From positions 1 through 38,846 of IMG/VR virus record IMGVR_UViG_3300024940_000003: 38,846 bases of DNA; one strand, written 5' to 3'. Origin of the DNA: a virus. Below the pieces are notes generated by a model. That model was not told the origin of the DNA. It ran no database searches and worked only from the letters and a program-made list of their open reading frames with translations. Made by a program: the position numbers and the translations under genes. Below are positions 51 through 38,693 of the stretch, piece by piece (position 1 is the stretch's first letter; every line of letters starts with the position of its first letter).

Positions 51-127
51 AGGCGGTTAGCTCAGTTGGTTAGAGCGCTTGGTCGACATCCAAGAGGTCA
101 GCAGTTCGAATCTGCTACTGCCTACCA
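51..127 (+). tRNA. tRNA-Val (anticodon GAC)
   Basis: Full cloverleaf read by eye. The acceptor AGGCGGT (51-57) pairs with ACTGCCT (117-123), followed by A and an encoded CCA. The D stem is GCTC/GAGC, the anticodon stem CTTGG/CCAAG with loop TCGACAT, and the T arm contains GTTCGAATC. The anticodon is GAC. Position 33 reads C rather than the nearly universal U. The last 14 bases form the phage attachment core, so integration leaves the gene intact. No terminator follows on this side. One that fits lies beyond attR. Confidence 0.93.
114..127. other. attL core (tRNA 3' end)
   Basis: The 14 bp GCTACTGCCTACCA, identical to 38645-38658. The flanks differ immediately on both sides. It covers the end of the T arm, the 3' acceptor strand and CCA, a usual target for tyrosine integrases. 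Confidence 0.92.
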
Positions 128-3223: not shown

Positions 3224-3541
3224 TTACTTCGCTCTATGGGTTGTTACGTTGCCTTCAACTATTACTGTTGCGCGGTTGTTTACCGTGTTTTTTTGCTCAA
3301 TTGCCTGCTTAGCAGCTGGCGCTGAAAGTTGTGCTGGCGGTGTTGGTTTCTGAAAGAAATGTGTTTCGATACTGCCGTTAACGCGCATGAAATCAATCTC
3401 TGTTTTTGCTGTATCTACAATCACATCACCTACTTGGCAGATAGCTTTTGCTCGATCGATATCCATCGGGTTCTCTTTATCCTGCAGCGCAGTTAGCGTG
3501 TTAAACAGGTGCGATCTGAGTTCTAAGATGTCGTTGTTCAT
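3224..3541 (-). CDS. 105-aa hypothetical phage protein
   Basis: Begins MNNDILELRSHLFNTLTALQ. The first 60 residues are helical, with AKAICQVGDVIVDTAKTEIDFM resembling a short conserved stretch found in many uncharacterised phage early proteins. The C-terminal third is low complexity (KPTPPAQLSAPAAKQA). The longer reading frame starts 13 codons earlier, but GAAGGAAAGAA sits directly before this ATG. It overlaps the end of the HNH gene by 41 bp. Function unknown. Confidence 0.7.
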   Translation of the reverse strand: MNNDILELRSHLFNTLTALQDKENPMDIDRAKAICQVGDVIVDTAKTEIDFMRVNGSIETHFFQKPTPPAQLSAPAAKQAIEQKNTVNNRATVIVEGNVTTHRAK

Positions 3542-4190
3542 TTTCTTTCCTTCGTTTATTAATCTGTCTTGAAATTGCACCTTTAAGCTGTGATACTTGC
3601 ATAAACTCTTTACCGTACTTGGCAGGATGATTGCGCTTAGCGTTTTCTGCTTTGTTCATCAGCATTAAGTTTGTGATCTCTACATTTAGCTTGTTGCCAT
3701 CAATAAAAGCAACCATGTGCCCGTCTGGGATCTTTCCGTTGCATCGCTCCCAAACCAATCTGCTAACAGATTTCCATTGTCGTAGGCCTTCTGCTATTTT
3801 TACTTCTAGGTAGCCATCTTTAACTACTCGATAAGTGCCTACAGGTTTGTAGTTTGGTGATTTTTGCCCTGACTTAAATTGCGTCTTTATTGAGTTTTGG
3901 TGTGGTGTTATTTTTTTACCTTTGTTCGATGGCACTTGTCCTTTTTTAAATCTAGTGCATTGTCCAGCGCTGTTATCATGTTTTAAGCTGCCAGACATTG
4001 GGCTATCTTTAAACCATTGCGACTTACCTACATTTACATTGCCTGCCATGTTGAATACCTGGCAATTGCTGGCATTAAATAGCTTTGCTATGGCAGCCGT
4101 ATTGCTGCATGGATAAAGTAGGGCAATCATGCGTTTATCTTCATCCGTCCAGACGCGCCTCTTAGCTATTTTGTTAAGCGATTTGGTCAT
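3501..4190 (-). CDS. HNH endonuclease (homing-like)
   Basis: A 229-residue protein with an N-terminal basic helical region, a linker rich in K, G and P, and a C-terminal HNH core near residues 135-185 (SRLVWERCNGKIP, GHMVAFIDGNKLN, ITNLMLM). This is the HNH_3-like arrangement common in free-standing phage nucleases. The position before FIDGN, often His, is replaced here, while the preceding GH is kept. I judge it a probable active variant but cannot prove it. The frame extends four codons upstream to a TTG. The ATG is preferred. It may be a mobile gene inserted in the early operon. Confidence 0.8.
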   Translation of the reverse strand: MTKSLNKIAKRRVWTDEDKRMIALLYPCSNTAAIAKLFNASNCQVFNMAGNVNVGKSQWFKDSPMSGSLKHDNSAGQCTRFKKGQVPSNKGKKITPHQNSIKTQFKSGQKSPNYKPVGTYRVVKDGYLEVKIAEGLRQWKSVSRLVWERCNGKIPDGHMVAFIDGNKLNVEITNLMLMNKAENAKRNHPAKYGKEFMQVSQLKGAISRQINKRRKENEQRHLRTQIAPV

Positions 4191-5882: not shown

Positions 5883-5948
5883 AATATACAACCACAGTTA
5901 TATTAATGTCAACAACTAAAGTTATATTTAAAAAATAACTTCAGTAAT
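5883..5948 (-). promoter_or_regulatory. PL-like promoter with three repressor operators
   Basis: On the minus strand, TTGACA (5912-5907) and TATATT (5888-5883) are 18 bp apart. Operator copies lie at 5888-5901 (ACAACCACAGTTAT), 5912-5925 (ACAACTAAAGTTAT) and 5935-5948 (ATAACTTCAGTAAT), with centre spacings of 24 and 23 bp. The first two are identical to the pair at the cI/cro switch and bracket the -35 box in the same way. CI should therefore silence the leftward operon in the lysogen. Binding is inferred from identity. Confidence 0.82.
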
Positions 5949-5975: not shown

Positions 5976-6002
5976 GTAAAAAAACCCGCTCAGAGGCGGG
6001 TT
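5976..6002 (-). terminator. rho-independent terminator of the TAC operon
   Basis: Perfect 7-bp stem AACCCGC/GCGGGTT (5983-5989 with 5996-6002), loop of 6. Read on the minus strand it is followed by a run of seven T. It lies just after the SecB-like gene and before the PL operators, separating the two transcription units. Confidence 0.9.
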
Positions 6003-6018: not shown

Positions 6019-6441
6019 TTATTTTTCATCAGGTTTTTGTTCCTTTTGAGCGCCCAATATTGAAAGCCCTAAGGATAAAGGTCCAAATGGGTGCCGTGCT
6101 GTTATCCAAAGCACCGCTTCTCTAATTGCACCATAAGTTACACTGTGTCCGATTACAGTAACGGCTTTTAAAGCTTCAGTATCATTTAGATTTTCTACAC
6201 TGAATAAAGCTACGCACTCCATATCTATGGAGTATCCTGATATTGGATCATTATCTTGGTTAAAAATCATTTTCATAGTGACTATATAGTCACTATGAAT
6301 CTCAGGGTGCTTTTCAACATTAATATGATTAATTGGTTTGATGGATGTTACTGTGACGCCAGTTGGCGTGTGATTAGGGTTTGAAATCACAATACTTCTA
6401 GTGAAGTAAATGTGCTTTAAGTTAACTGGATAATCAGACAT
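6019..6441 (-). CDS. SecB-like chaperone of a TAC module
   Basis: A 140-residue SecB-family protein. It has alternating strands in the first 100 residues (NLKHIYFTRSIVISNP, YIVTMKMIFNQD, MECVALFSVEN), then the helical C-terminus YGAIREAVLWITARHPFGPL that matches the SecB signature region. General SecB binds unfolded exported proteins. Copies next to a toxin-antitoxin pair protect the antitoxin and control toxin activation. Here it is the third gene after toxin and antitoxin, starting one base after the antitoxin stop, and a terminator follows. It is divergent enough to be a dedicated SecB-TA rather than the housekeeping copy. Confidence 0.85.
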   Translation of the reverse strand: MSDYPVNLKHIYFTRSIVISNPNHTPTGVTVTSIKPINHINVEKHPEIHSDYIVTMKMIFNQDNDPISGYSIDMECVALFSVENLNDTEALKAVTVIGHSVTYGAIREAVLWITARHPFGPLSLGLSILGAQKEQKPDEK

Positions 6442-6442
6442 A

Positions 6443-6865
6443 TTAAGCTGTGCGTTCTAATAGGTTGTTTTGGCCAAATTTAGGAAATGAATAAACGTTA
6501 GTTTCAAATTTGGCGGTTTCGGTATGTGTTGCTTGATTAGCAACTGGAAAGTTTACATAGTTTTTAGTGAACCAAACGCTTGAGTTTTTTGCAGCGACGG
6601 TTTCGGCTAGGTATATTTTAACTTCACTTTCTAGTGCTAATGCGATATCGGAAAGTGTCCTAAGGGTCATATTTCTGCCACCATTTAGTAACTGAGTTAC
6701 GTGAGATTTCCCGCAACCTAGTCTGTCGCCAAGATCTTGTTTTTTTAATCCAAGCTCTTCTAATCTTTCCCAAATTTGTTCAGTTACATCAAGAATTAAA
6801 GCCTCTTGATTGTATTCTTTCTTGTTTTTTTCTGAAGCGTTAACCCAGTCTTTAATATTGTCCAT
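6443..6865 (-). CDS. HigA-like antitoxin with C-terminal extension
   Basis: A 140-residue XRE-type regulator. Residues about 30-85 form the helix-turn-helix domain (LGLKKQDLGDRLGCGKSHVT, LLNGGRNMTLRTLSDIALAL). The last 45 residues are an extra tail (SSVWFTKNYVNFPV, FETNVYSFPKFG) rich in aromatic residues. In chaperone-controlled TA systems such a tail (chaperone addiction region) makes the antitoxin depend on SecB. AGGA lies 7 bases before the ATG. It should bind the toxin and repress its own promoter through the palindromes at 7242-7276. Confidence 0.85.
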   Translation of the reverse strand: MDNIKDWVNASEKNKKEYNQEALILDVTEQIWERLEELGLKKQDLGDRLGCGKSHVTQLLNGGRNMTLRTLSDIALALESEVKIYLAETVAAKNSSVWFTKNYVNFPVANQATHTETAKFETNVYSFPKFGQNNLLERTA

Positions 6866-6881
6866 AATTTATCCTTTGAAA

Positions 6882-7238
6882 CTATTCAATTGCTTCATAT
6901 TTGGCTCTGTTGCGTTGTGCGCGCTCAAGGTCTGCAGGGTCGAGTTTTTGTTTTTTTTTGCAAATGTAATGGCTAATAACAAAAGTTCCTCTTTTTCTTG
7001 AGTGGTACCATCCGTATGCCCTCAGTCCACTTCTTGCTTTAATAGCAAATATACCGTCACCCTCAGGATTCATTTGGTCAGGTGATCTTAATTTCCCAAG
7101 ATTTGCAAATCTCTCAATTAGGGTTTTATGCTGAGCGATTGCCGTAGTTGGTTGTACTTGACCTTCTGCTATGGGTCGAGAGGCTGCTGCATCATCAGTT
7201 TCCTCAATAGTGAAAACATTACCTATATAAAATATCAC
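6882..7238 (-). CDS. HigB/RelE-like toxin (Gp49 family)
   Basis: A 118-residue protein of the phage-derived Gp49/RelE type: GIFAIKARSGLRAYGWYHSR followed by GTFVISHYICKKKQKLDPAD and a closing helix LERAQRNRAKYE. RelE-type toxins cut mRNA on the ribosome. Catalytic residues are not fixed in this family, but the basic patch is present. The start is GTG, with AGG 8 bases upstream. An out-of-frame ATG nearby is not used. It is first in the operon, before antitoxin and chaperone, the usual order of HigB-HigA-SecB modules. Confidence 0.82.
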   Translation of the reverse strand: MIFYIGNVFTIEETDDAAASRPIAEGQVQPTTAIAQHKTLIERFANLGKLRSPDQMNPEGDGIFAIKARSGLRAYGWYHSRKRGTFVISHYICKKKQKLDPADLERAQRNRAKYEAIE

Positions 7239-7241
7239 AAA

Positions 7242-7276
7242 GTTTACCTATATGTAAACATATTGACCAATATGTT
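7242..7276 (-). promoter_or_regulatory. two palindromes upstream of the TAC operon
   Basis: GTTTAC-6 nt-GTAAAC at 7242-7259 and a perfect 9-bp inverted repeat AACATATTG/CAATATGTT at 7257-7276 with a 2-nt centre. They overlap slightly and lie directly before the toxin GTG. HTH antitoxins usually bind such sites for autoregulation. I could not settle the -10/-35 boxes. The remaining bases to 7324 are AT-rich without a gene. Confidence 0.65.
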
Positions 7277-7324: not shown

Positions 7325-7588
7325 TTAACATCCCCTGCGTTCCCATTTATCCTTAGCCTTCGCATCAGCTTTAGTCTGCCATTGCATATTGCTTGGGTGA
7401 TCTGCGCCGCCACAAGCAAGCGCTTGAACATGGTCTATTATGTAACCAGGGCATGAGCCTTTGCTGCGTCCAGTAGCAGGGCAGGGGTTAGATTGTTTAA
7501 ATTGGCTCTTAGCCTTATAGCTGCGTCTATACTCTGCTTGAACTGAAAAAGACGTAATAACCAGAAGTAATATCATTAAATATTTCAA
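7325..7588 (-). CDS. exported small HNH nuclease
   Basis: An 87-residue protein with a cleavable-looking signal peptide (hydrophobic core residues 3-14, SVQA before EYRR) followed by a compact HNH region: CPATGRSKGSCPGYIIDHVQ, ALACGGADHPSNMQW, then KADAKAKDKWERRGC. The IDH...N pattern holds the HNH residues. Two cysteine pairs may form disulfides outside the cytoplasm. The reading frame starts with TTG (7588). An ATG four codons later would shorten the signal peptide. A periplasmic nuclease in a lysogen could damage incoming DNA, an inference from location only. Confidence 0.75.
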   Translation of the reverse strand: MKYLMILLLVITSFSVQAEYRRSYKAKSQFKQSNPCPATGRSKGSCPGYIIDHVQALACGGADHPSNMQWQTKADAKAKDKWERRGC

Positions 7589-7806: not shown

Positions 7807-8583
7807 TTAACTTTGTTGGGTATTTTCTGTGGCTGATTTTGTTTTTATTTTAGCTGCTGCTTTGGCACTTTTCTTTAAAAAATCCTTTGCCGCCTTTGCT
7901 TCATCACTATCTACAAGCTCTCTTTTGAGCACTTCATTCTGGATTGTATTTTTGATGAACTCAGGCTCTGTTTTTCCTGCTCCTAATTTTTTCAATTCTT
8001 TAGTAATAGCTATAATAATAGGTTCTGTTGTTAGCAGGGCGGCTAATGAGAATTTGTTAGTTGCTTGCTGTTGCTGGAAGAATGCTGTCATTGATGACTG
8101 GGTGAATCCCTCGCGACTCAGGTTTCCAAAGCACTCGAGCATTTGTTGATTTTTTGGGCTTGTTTGTAAAATGTCTATTTCAAATATGAGAGCTTTATCA
8201 ATAGGTTGCTTGAAGTGTATTTTATAGACCTGCCAAATGACGCCGTTTGTTAATACCACCCATTCAATCCCATGGTTTGCACCATAATCAATTGCTTGCT
8301 TAATGTGGTTATCTTTTAACGCAACTCCAATAGCTTTTGCTTCGATAAGAAATCTTACATTTGCATCAACTTTCACGGCTAAATCGCAATAAGTACCTCG
8401 AATGGCAAACTCCGTGGTTATTTCAGTGTATTTCTTATAGCCAAACATGTCTGCAAGCATATCGCCGATAATGACTACCGTATCTGATTCGCTAATGTCT
8501 CTATCTTTAGCTTCGCTAAGTACAGTTTGATATTTTTTAAGCATCAACGATATTCTGTCAGTCACTTTTTTTGATATAGCCAT
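7807..8583 (-). CDS. PD-(D/E)XK nuclease, HsdR N-terminal-like
   Basis: A 258-residue protein. The N-terminal domain fits the restriction-type PD-(D/E)XK fold: FAIRGTYCDLAVKV (Asp67) and RFLIEAKA (Glu81, Lys83), followed by IKQAIDYGANHGIEWVVLTN, as in the N-terminal nuclease domain of type I restriction subunit R and related solitary proteins. No helicase motifs follow. The C-terminus is helical and lysine-rich (AAKDFLKKSAKAAAKIKTKS). AGGGG is 6 bases before the ATG. It is the next gene after cI on the same strand, so it is probably expressed in the lysogen and may act against superinfecting phage. Targets are unknown. Confidence 0.75.
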   Translation of the reverse strand: MAISKKVTDRISLMLKKYQTVLSEAKDRDISESDTVVIIGDMLADMFGYKKYTEITTEFAIRGTYCDLAVKVDANVRFLIEAKAIGVALKDNHIKQAIDYGANHGIEWVVLTNGVIWQVYKIHFKQPIDKALIFEIDILQTSPKNQQMLECFGNLSREGFTQSSMTAFFQQQQATNKFSLAALLTTEPIIIAITKELKKLGAGKTEPEFIKNTIQNEVLKRELVDSDEAKAAKDFLKKSAKAAAKIKTKSATENTQQS

Positions 8584-8610: not shown

Positions 8611-9333
8611 TTAAATCACTTCACTTTGTTTGTGTACGATTCTGCCAATTATCAAACATAAGTCACCAGTACATTGCTTACGCGGATATTTACGCTGATC
8701 TGGGTTGTCTGATGAAAGCCACCATATGCCGGCATCACGAAATAGACGTTTTACAGTTAACTCACCCTCGTAGTTGATTGCAAATGCTATTCCATCAACA
8801 GGGGTGGTGTCCTCTGTGTTAATTACAACAGTATCACCATCATTCATTCCTGGTGACATGCTATCGCCCCTAACCCCTGTCGCCAGAAGTTTAGATGGAT
8901 TGTAACCACGAGATTCAAACCATTGGCGCTGCATGACAATTGGGGATTTATCGTCTATATCATGGTCGATACTAAAGCCCACAATCCCTGCGGATAGCCT
9001 TAGATTGACTCTTCTAATCGAAGGATAGTCTGGGTTGTCGACAAGGTTGATTGGTTCAGGTTTGTATTCAGCAACATCTTGCTTTGCTGATCTGCTAAAT
9101 AAGGGGATGGTATTAGACGAACTATCTATCATGTCCCCATCTCCTGTTGCCAACCAATGAGGGTTTACATCACAAGCGCGAGCGATTTGCGCGGTAAATT
9201 CTGAGCCACTAGCATTACTTATCTCTAGTTTTGAGATGTTTGCTTGGCTTATTTTTACCTTCTCAGCTAATGCAGCTTGTGAAAGCTTTGCATTTTGTCG
9301 TGCTTTTTTTAGACGTTCACCATAGTTCATCAT
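8611..9333 (-). CDS. cI: CI-like LexA-family repressor
   Basis: A 240-residue repressor. Residues 5-62 are an XRE helix-turn-helix (LSQAALAEKVKISQANISKL). The C-terminal half is an S24 peptidase domain with cleavage site Ala115-Gly116, catalytic Ser158 (RGDSMSPG) and Lys195 (GELTVKRLF). It should dimerise on the ATAACTnnAGTTGT operators at both control regions and self-cleave with RecA during the SOS response, inducing the prophage. The longer frame to 9417 would begin inside the cro start and is rejected. The ATG at 9333 falls at the predicted start of transcription, so the mRNA may be leaderless. A second ATG follows immediately. Confidence 0.9.
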   Translation of the reverse strand: MMNYGERLKKARQNAKLSQAALAEKVKISQANISKLEISNASGSEFTAQIARACDVNPHWLATGDGDMIDSSSNTIPLFSRSAKQDVAEYKPEPINLVDNPDYPSIRRVNLRLSAGIVGFSIDHDIDDKSPIVMQRQWFESRGYNPSKLLATGVRGDSMSPGMNDGDTVVINTEDTTPVDGIAFAINYEGELTVKRLFRDAGIWWLSSDNPDQRKYPRKQCTGDLCLIIGRIVHKQSEVI

Positions 9334-9337
9334 CAAG

Positions 9338-9366
9338 TTTATACAATCAATCTTCTTTGTTGTAAA
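9338..9366 (-). promoter_or_regulatory. PRM-like promoter for cI
   Basis: Minus-strand boxes TTTACA (9366-9361) and TATAAA (9343-9338) are exactly 17 bp apart. The -35 box abuts the operator at 9367-9380, a layout in which bound CI can contact RNA polymerase and activate its own gene as in lambda. The predicted start falls about 9331-9333, at the ATG. Confidence 0.75.
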
Positions 9367-9409
9367 ACAACTAAAGTTATTGACAGGAATATAACTGTGG
9401 TTGTATTCT
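9367..9409 (+). promoter_or_regulatory. PR-like promoter and oR operators
   Basis: Operators ACAACTAAAGTTAT (9367-9380) and ATAACTGTGGTTGT (9391-9404) bracket TTGACA (9380-9385). A -10 box TATTCT (9404-9409) follows with an 18-bp spacer. The second operator fills the spacer, so CI binding there blocks PR. The 10-bp gap between operators and the placement match those of the PL-like region. Confidence 0.8.
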
Positions 9410-9415
9410 TCACTC

Positions 9416-9679
9416 ATGTCAAAATATTTCCTTGAAAAAATTGTTCAACTGGTTGATGGTCAGGTTTCTCTTGCTGAGAAATTAGCAACTGATGAAGACC
9501 CAATAAAACAAGCTCATGTTTGGCGATGGCTTAATACGACAGCTGAAGGAATACCTGCAAGATATGTTATTCGAGCATGCTCTGCTGTTAACTGGCATGT
9601 CACGCCACATGAGCTTCGCCCCGATCTATACCCACACCCTGATGACGGTTTGCCTGAACACTTAAGGAGTGCTGCATGA
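9416..9679 (+). CDS. cro: Cro-like (YdaS-type) repressor
   Basis: An 87-residue HTH protein (VSLAEKLATDEDPIKQAHVW, then RWLNTTAEGIPARYVIRACS) with the KITPHELRPDLYP-like ending (WHVTPHELRPDLYP) characteristic of the YdaS/Cro group. It stands divergent from cI as the first rightward gene and is expected to compete for the same operators and favour lysis. No ribosome site precedes the ATG. The predicted start of transcription from PR is at or beside the A of ATG, so the mRNA is probably leaderless. A TTG 15 bases upstream lies inside the promoter and is rejected. Confidence 0.85.
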   Translation: MSKYFLEKIVQLVDGQVSLAEKLATDEDPIKQAHVWRWLNTTAEGIPARYVIRACSAVNWHVTPHELRPDLYPHPDDGLPEHLRSAA

Positions 9680-38644: not shown

Positions 38645-38658
38645 GCTACTGCCTACCA
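38645..38658. other. attR core
   Basis: GCTACTGCCTACCA, identical to the tRNA-Val 3' end at 114-127. Marks the right end of the prophage. Confidence 0.92.
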
Positions 38659-38664
38659 AATTTA

Positions 38665-38693
38665 AAACCACTTCAAATTTGAAGTGGTTTTTT
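38665..38693 (+). terminator. rho-independent terminator, probably of tRNA-Val
   Basis: Perfect 10-bp stem AAACCACTTC/GAAGTGGTTT around AAATTT, then T's, seven bases after attR. In the uninfected chromosome it would follow the tRNA CCA directly. Confidence 0.85.

Follow-up and report, generated by a model that had tools for sequence, protein, structure and literature searches.

A toxin–antitoxin–chaperone operon in the immunity region of a prophage, a candidate exclusion cassette with relatives in other temperate phages

In toxin–antitoxin–chaperone (TAC) systems the chaperone binds the ChAD at the antitoxin C-terminus and guards the antitoxin against aggregation and Clp degradation (PMC5105189, PMC6377645, PMC8165232). 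Three systems of Escherichia coli have been linked to phages: CmdTAC is released once the T4 capsid protein has captured its chaperone (PMC11618068), for HigBAC the activator is the lambda major tail protein according to an article that cites the original work (PMC11980606, citing Mets et al. 2024) and MqsRAC protects against T2 (PMC9519451). Many E. coli defence systems sit in prophages (PMC9519451), and lambdoid prophages commonly carry accessory and exclusion loci in the stretch behind cI (PMC7067206). As early as 2014, a review noted SecB-like genes in phages (PMC4257090). In the literature we searched, which left out most subscription papers, we found no paper on TACs as immunity-region cargo and none that recognized the genes of phages HK639 and mEp237 discussed below as TACs.

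We here describe a three-gene operon in IMG/VR record IMGVR_UViG_3300024940_000003, of which positions 1 to 38,846, the whole stretch analysed, are called the window. Its gene order of toxin, antitoxin and chaperone is that of HigBA1-SecB-TA (Rv1955-Rv1956-Rv1957) of Mycobacterium tuberculosis, and both operons appear to encode a RelE/HigB-type toxin, an HTH antitoxin with a C-terminal aromatic tail and a SecB-fold chaperone. They differ in that the window chaperone is only about 22% identical to Rv1957 over the structural alignment, although Rv1957 is its best structural match, in that the window antitoxin tail lacks the exact WHR...Y motif, and in that HigBA1-SecB-TA is a chromosomal locus whereas the window TAC lies in a prophage immunity region. 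In architecture and presumed logic, the window operon also resembles HigBAC, a phage-defence system of E. coli C496. CmdTAC of E. coli ECOR22 shares the SecB-like chaperone and the three-gene order, and its Clp-type antitoxin C-terminus has a candidate counterpart in the window, but its toxin is an ADP-ribosyltransferase and its antitoxin is not an HTH protein. The MqsRAC TACs (E. coli, a Cupriavidus plasmid and Escherichia phage PhiR70_1) carry MqsR and MqsA, unrelated to the window toxin–antitoxin pair, although that of PhiR70_1 shares the immunity slot. The cI-linked exclusion genes rexAB of lambda and bstA of BTP1 occupy the same place between cI and the leftward promoter, but they encode unrelated proteins with a different exclusion mechanism.

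The window is an integrated prophage. It has a tRNA-Val(gac) gene (51–127, plus strand) at the left att site, with a 14-nt repeat (114–127), followed by an integrase gene (332–1513); an identical plus-strand repeat, GCTACTGCCTACCA, marks the right att site at 38645–38658. Just outside this right repeat, a 28-bp palindrome followed by a T-run (38664–38691) is probably the terminator of the host tRNA-Val, which would mean that the record extends into host flank on its right side. All three genes of the operon are on the minus strand: the toxin gene (6882–7238, 118 aa, GTG start), the antitoxin gene (6443–6865, 140 aa, ATG start) and the chaperone gene (6019–6441, 140 aa, ATG start), separated by 16 and 1 nt. 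A palindrome with perfect 9-nt arms, AACATATTG-AC-CAATATGTT (7257–7276), lies at the operon promoter, immediately ahead of the toxin start, and is a candidate antitoxin operator; of 500 sequences resampled from the region, 4 reached arms of at least 9 nt. The single intrinsic terminator of the operon lies 3' of the chaperone as its third gene (5983–6002, minus strand; 7-bp stem with a U-run, folding z = −3.05). The toxin, the HTH antitoxin with its tail, the SecB-fold chaperone, the palindrome and the terminator together identify the operon, as far as sequence and structure prediction go, as a TAC module of the known HigBA-SecB type. The original prediction had called it a prophage-borne operon of this type, with consecutive minus-strand genes, palindromes in front and a terminator behind. 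All of this is upheld, the type by sequence, gene order, predicted fold and homologous operons, and the prophage setting by the tRNA-Val gene, the integrase, the identical att repeats and the cI/S24 repressor described below. The background on which it drew is correct both for M. tuberculosis, with its chaperone addiction (PMC5105189, PMC6377645), and for phage defence by TACs in E. coli (PMC9519451, PMC11618068).

The toxin matches Gp49 (PF05973) at E 0.006 and 17.1 bits, below the curated cut-off of 23.9, and a PDB sequence search with a 17-member toxin profile gave no match. It is hence filed as like the HigB/RelE-ParE superfamily (Gp49) and not as a member. The toxin of a sister operon, L047 (L-numbers denote loci from our scans), scores E 2.9e-4 against Gp49, also below the cut-off. 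The RelE/HigB-like toxin that had been predicted is borne out at this level by the Gp49 match and by 38% identity over 101 aa (E 4e-19) to the toxin of the homologous L002 operon; K67, R73 and K94 are invariant across the 17-member alignment. The antitoxin scores above the cut-off for HTH_3 (PF01381, E 4.6e-7), shares 17 invariant residues with 5 relatives and is 44–45% identical overall to the L002 antitoxin. It had been described as an XRE antitoxin with a 45-residue aromatic tail: the HTH domain and the aromatic tail stand, but the tail is longer, about 53 residues past the HTH, with F/W/Y at 15% compared with 5% in the HTH part. Known ClpX-type antitoxin C-termini are Val-Ala in HigA1 and LAA in CmdA. 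The window antitoxin ends in -RTA and its relatives mostly in -AA or -VA. The tail is a candidate ChAD and its end a candidate ClpX degron.

The SecB-like chaperone of the original prediction holds up in its predicted fold but not in its SecB HMM score, as the match to PF02556 aligns across 111 residues at E 0.0036, below the cut-off. The protein likewise does not reach the profile cut-off for the canonical SecB export chaperone (NF004392, E 0.0028, 17.5 bits compared with 143; TIGR00809, E 0.074). An AlphaFold2 monomer model from a ten-row alignment has a pLDDT of 86.5 and a pTM of 0.79, and Foldseek ranks the four chains of PDB entry 5MTW first among its matches (E 2.7e-6 to 1.5e-5, probability 1.00); this entry is Rv1957, the M. 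tuberculosis TAC chaperone, with its antitoxin peptide. Next come the SecB proteins of E. coli and Haemophilus influenzae, and we take the SecB fold as established at the level of prediction. Homologues 46–49% identical to the window chaperone each close another three-gene operon in two viral contigs (L047 and L048).

Within the chaperone coding sequence lies a perfect 28-bp palindrome, TTCATAGTGACTATATAGTCACTATGAA (6272–6299), followed by a T-rich stretch. Arms of at least 12 arose in 0 of 500 resamplings of the gene, and the palindrome may act as an attenuator or bind a protein. It was also considered as a cI operator, an idea that was dropped because the window holds no second copy at up to 3 mismatches. 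Leaving aside a hairpin in the chaperone gene, terminator-like sites on the same strand were found, from cI to where the operon stops, only inside the cI gene and at the TAC end.

In phage lambda the exclusion genes rexAB lie between cI and the leftward early promoter. In the window, a cI-like repressor with an HTH and an S24 peptidase domain (8611–9417, minus strand; PF00717 E 7.9e-19, HTH_19 E 2.1e-10, phrog_4 transcriptional repressor E 2.3e-48) heads a same-strand cluster that continues with an HsdR_N-like gene, a 62-aa ORF, an 87-aa HNH-like ORF and the TAC, at gaps of 27, 9, 20 and 86 nt. The cluster is bracketed by an outward-pointing 50-nt inverted pair of 80% identity: one arm at 9357–9406 on the plus strand (TTGACA -18- TATTCT) and one at 5886–5935 on the minus strand (TTGACA -18- TATATT). 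The pair scores 45 bits compared with 34 for the 99th percentile of controls, and from their sequences we read the arms as PR/OR-like and PL/OL-like promoter–operator regions, respectively. The TAC thus lies downstream of cI, between PL-like and PR-like operators, at the rexAB position of a lambda-type immunity region.

Two further genes of the cluster deserve mention. The HsdR_N-like protein of 258 aa directly behind cI (7807–8583, minus strand; PF13588 E 3.4e-7; phrog_17239, function unknown, E 8.3e-76) is another candidate lysogeny-expressed gene. The 87-aa protein (7325–7588) has an HNH-like motif and a probable signal peptide and matches phrog_7785 (HNH endonuclease) at E 0.0028; it is possibly a secreted or periplasmic nuclease and perhaps a second exclusion factor. 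Directly upstream of the L047 TAC, a gene at 3425–4057 of that locus encodes what looks by eye like a secreted thermonuclease-like protein with an Excalibur-like C-terminus; in both L047 and the window a predicted extracytoplasmic nuclease stands beside the TAC.

Related operons were sought in viral contigs by pattern-based scans that started from the antitoxin, and all locus counts derive from these. The antitoxin-alignment scan yielded 35 loci, most with the same order of toxin, HTH antitoxin and third gene, and L002, L009 and L010 are homologous three-gene operons. Single-protein scans of the viral contigs with the toxin and the chaperone gave no match, and alignments were needed as queries; in single-protein tblastn, neither query matched the named phages, and the chaperone query produced the one match, to a plasmid. 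A scan of a genome collection with poor patterns added four loci in metagenome-assembled genomes. Three loci (L003, L004 and L022) were rejected as TACs, having only the HTH protein and neighbours without a toxin or SecB-like gene, and L041 and L042, with toxin and antitoxin present, were left out of the tally because no third gene was found. In two other loci (L043, 4343–5676; L046, 4391–5727) an HTH antitoxin-like gene is flanked by a possible toxin and by a third, beta-rich protein of 127–137 aa, possibly a different tripartite toxin–antitoxin type.

The position next to a repressor recurs. In 19 distinct viral loci, some of them still close relatives, the operon is complete and the sequence upstream long enough to judge. 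The first gene of annotated size ahead of the TAC is of repressor type (HTH+S24 or small HTH/CI-type) in 16 of the 19: L016, L018, L019, L020, L021, L024, L027, L029, L030–33 (counted once), L034, L035 (HK639), L037, L039, L040, L048 and the window. L026/28, L047 and L002 have no repressor directly upstream. When upstream flanks were compared with downstream flanks, inverted pairs of at least 35 bits were found at 9 of 23 TAC-type loci and in 2 of 200 mismatched control pairs, the scoring controls involving related phages. Searching the named phages with the L019 chaperone added Escherichia phage PhiR70_1 and Klebsiella phage 2b. PhiR70_1 has the order cro, cI, MqsR-like, MqsA (PF15731, E 1.9e-17), SecB-like, kil, gam, bet, which is the exact rexAB slot, and its operon is present in 18 of 5,426 E. 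coli genomes; Klebsiella phage 2b has this trio too, unannotated and behind an S24 gene.

The TAC operons that HK639, mEp237, PhiR70_1 and Klebsiella phage 2b carry at this position are mostly labelled 'hypothetical' or unannotated. Those of mEp237 (gp36–34; L006, 2053–3294) and HK639 (HK639_49–47; L007, 2173–3264) are cryptic TACs annotated as hypothetical protein, HTH regulator and hypothetical protein. The start of HK639_49 seems to be annotated too late, as the frame in L035 runs 37 codons further upstream and aligns with other toxins. The third genes fall into different groups. In L016, L018, L019, L021, L026, L028, L034 and L039 the third gene has a SecB-like WPYWRE block, and a chaperone profile of this group, built with L002, L009 and L010, finds Rv1957 in the PDB (E 3.6e-7). 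A second group, which includes the coliphages HK639 and mEp237, has a third gene of 132–140 aa with no Pfam or profile match, and profile–profile comparison gave a probability of 1% for SecB and hence no support. Its AlphaFold2 model (pLDDT 89.4) has SecB as each of its first 19 structural matches; with the predicted fold as the one line of support, the chaperone assignment rests on structure prediction. In PHROGs the WPYWRE group corresponds to phrog_16879 and the HK639/mEp237 type to phrog_19522, both of unknown function. Phage TAC chaperones thus largely escape the Pfam SecB model.

Chaperones and toxin–antitoxin pairs occur in several combinations. The window-type chaperone is paired with four toxin–antitoxin pairs: Gp49-HTH in the window, two other toxin/HTH pairs (L047 and L048) and MqsRA on the Cupriavidus plasmid, whose SecB is 37% identical to the window chaperone over 76 aa. 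Global alignments of the window-clade toxins had tiny overlaps, and their identities were left out; BLASTP finds no similarity among these toxins and, among the antitoxins, at most a weak one in the HTH. The L019-type chaperone is found with Gp49-HTH and with MqsRA, and the Gp49-HTH pair with three chaperone types. Conservation is uneven along the operon. Mean identities in the lambdoid group are 68% for the toxin, 70% for the HTH, 37% for the antitoxin tail and 41% for the chaperone, with a better conserved toxin than chaperone in 35 of 36 pairs; in the L016-type group they are 59, 70, 41 and 51%, respectively, with the toxin ahead in 19 of 28 pairs. Faster divergence of tail and chaperone fits a variable sensing part, or arms-race sensor, but is suggestive only: the pairs are not independent of one another, and constraint may just be weaker on chaperones than on toxins.

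The original prediction was that the operon blocks superinfection or stabilizes the prophage. Both are plausible, with the exclusion branch supported by the place next to cI in many phages, and on balance we favour, by analogy with the E. coli systems, an immunity-region exclusion cassette that is expressed in the lysogen and aborts superinfection through its chaperone. In the lysogen, expression of the TAC would accompany that of cI, through the cI unit and/or the TAC's own autoregulated promoter. The SecB-like chaperone would hold the aromatic antitoxin tail and keep the antitoxin folded and safe from Clp proteolysis, and the antitoxin would neutralize the RelE/Gp49-type toxin, leaving the module silent. 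On superinfection, an abundant virion protein would mimic the tail and take the chaperone; the antitoxin would then be lost, the toxin would stop translation, presumably by mRNA cleavage, and the infection would abort. Such a module would have to avoid firing on the prophage's own virion proteins at induction. Sensing of export or folding stress, the form in which the idea was originally put, appears less likely, as in both E. coli TACs whose trigger is known a specific virion protein (major tail protein or capsid) competes for the chaperone.

Several observations count against exclusion. The toxin and SecB matches fall short of the Pfam cut-offs, the place beside cI also fits stabilized lysogeny, the palindrome at 6272–6299 could lower chaperone expression, and HicAB2, a well-studied toxin–antitoxin system of prophage P1 in Pseudomonas putida, has a role in neither stability nor defence (PMC12894663). 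An addiction module, in which cells that lose the prophage, or hold it excised and unreplicated, would lose chaperone and antitoxin and be poisoned, suits a self-contained operon with its own operator and terminator. To our knowledge, all type II toxin–antitoxin modules on mobile elements are able to act in this way. Addiction gives no reason for the cI-to-PL slot to be chosen repeatedly, for chaperone and tail to diverge faster or for chaperones to be swapped between toxin–antitoxin pairs, and we consider it unlikely as the explanation, although addiction and exclusion can coexist.

A role in lysogeny control, with the HTH antitoxin and the chaperone coupling export or folding stress to induction or to the lytic/lysogenic choice, strikes us as quite improbable. 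The toxin would be superfluous, the operon's own palindrome differs from the PL/PR arms, and toxin–antitoxin types as unlike as MqsRA and Gp49-HTH occupy the same slot, even though the antitoxin is a predicted DNA-binding (HTH) protein and PL- and PR-like promoters bracket the operon within the immunity region. We are equally doubtful that the operon is decaying or silent passenger DNA without present function. The GTG start, the sub-threshold Pfam scores and the odd internal palindrome could be taken that way, but three intact ORFs with tight spacing, an operator and a terminator, and conserved key residues speak against it.

Since many unrelated dormant phages carry a TAC beside their repressor, exclusion cassettes of this kind are probably a common means for resident phages to exclude other phages. 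The broader proposal, to which we give an even chance, is that temperate-phage TACs are standing cassettes of the rexAB slot whose chaperone is an exchangeable, fast-evolving sensor of rival virions, that no TAC senses the virion proteins of its own phage, and that phrog_19522, phrog_16879, HK639_47 and mEp237 gp34 are SecB-fold sensors that have gone unrecognized. It would offer a probable identity for phage protein families now labelled unknown and missed by Pfam's SecB model. If it is true, the natural signals of TACs, and the way in which a prophage escapes its own sensor while making virions, would become directly testable. Temperate phages, including the laboratory-growable HK639, would then routinely carry chaperone-sensed suicide modules in the classical rexAB spot, and TAC defence would be largely phage-against-phage.
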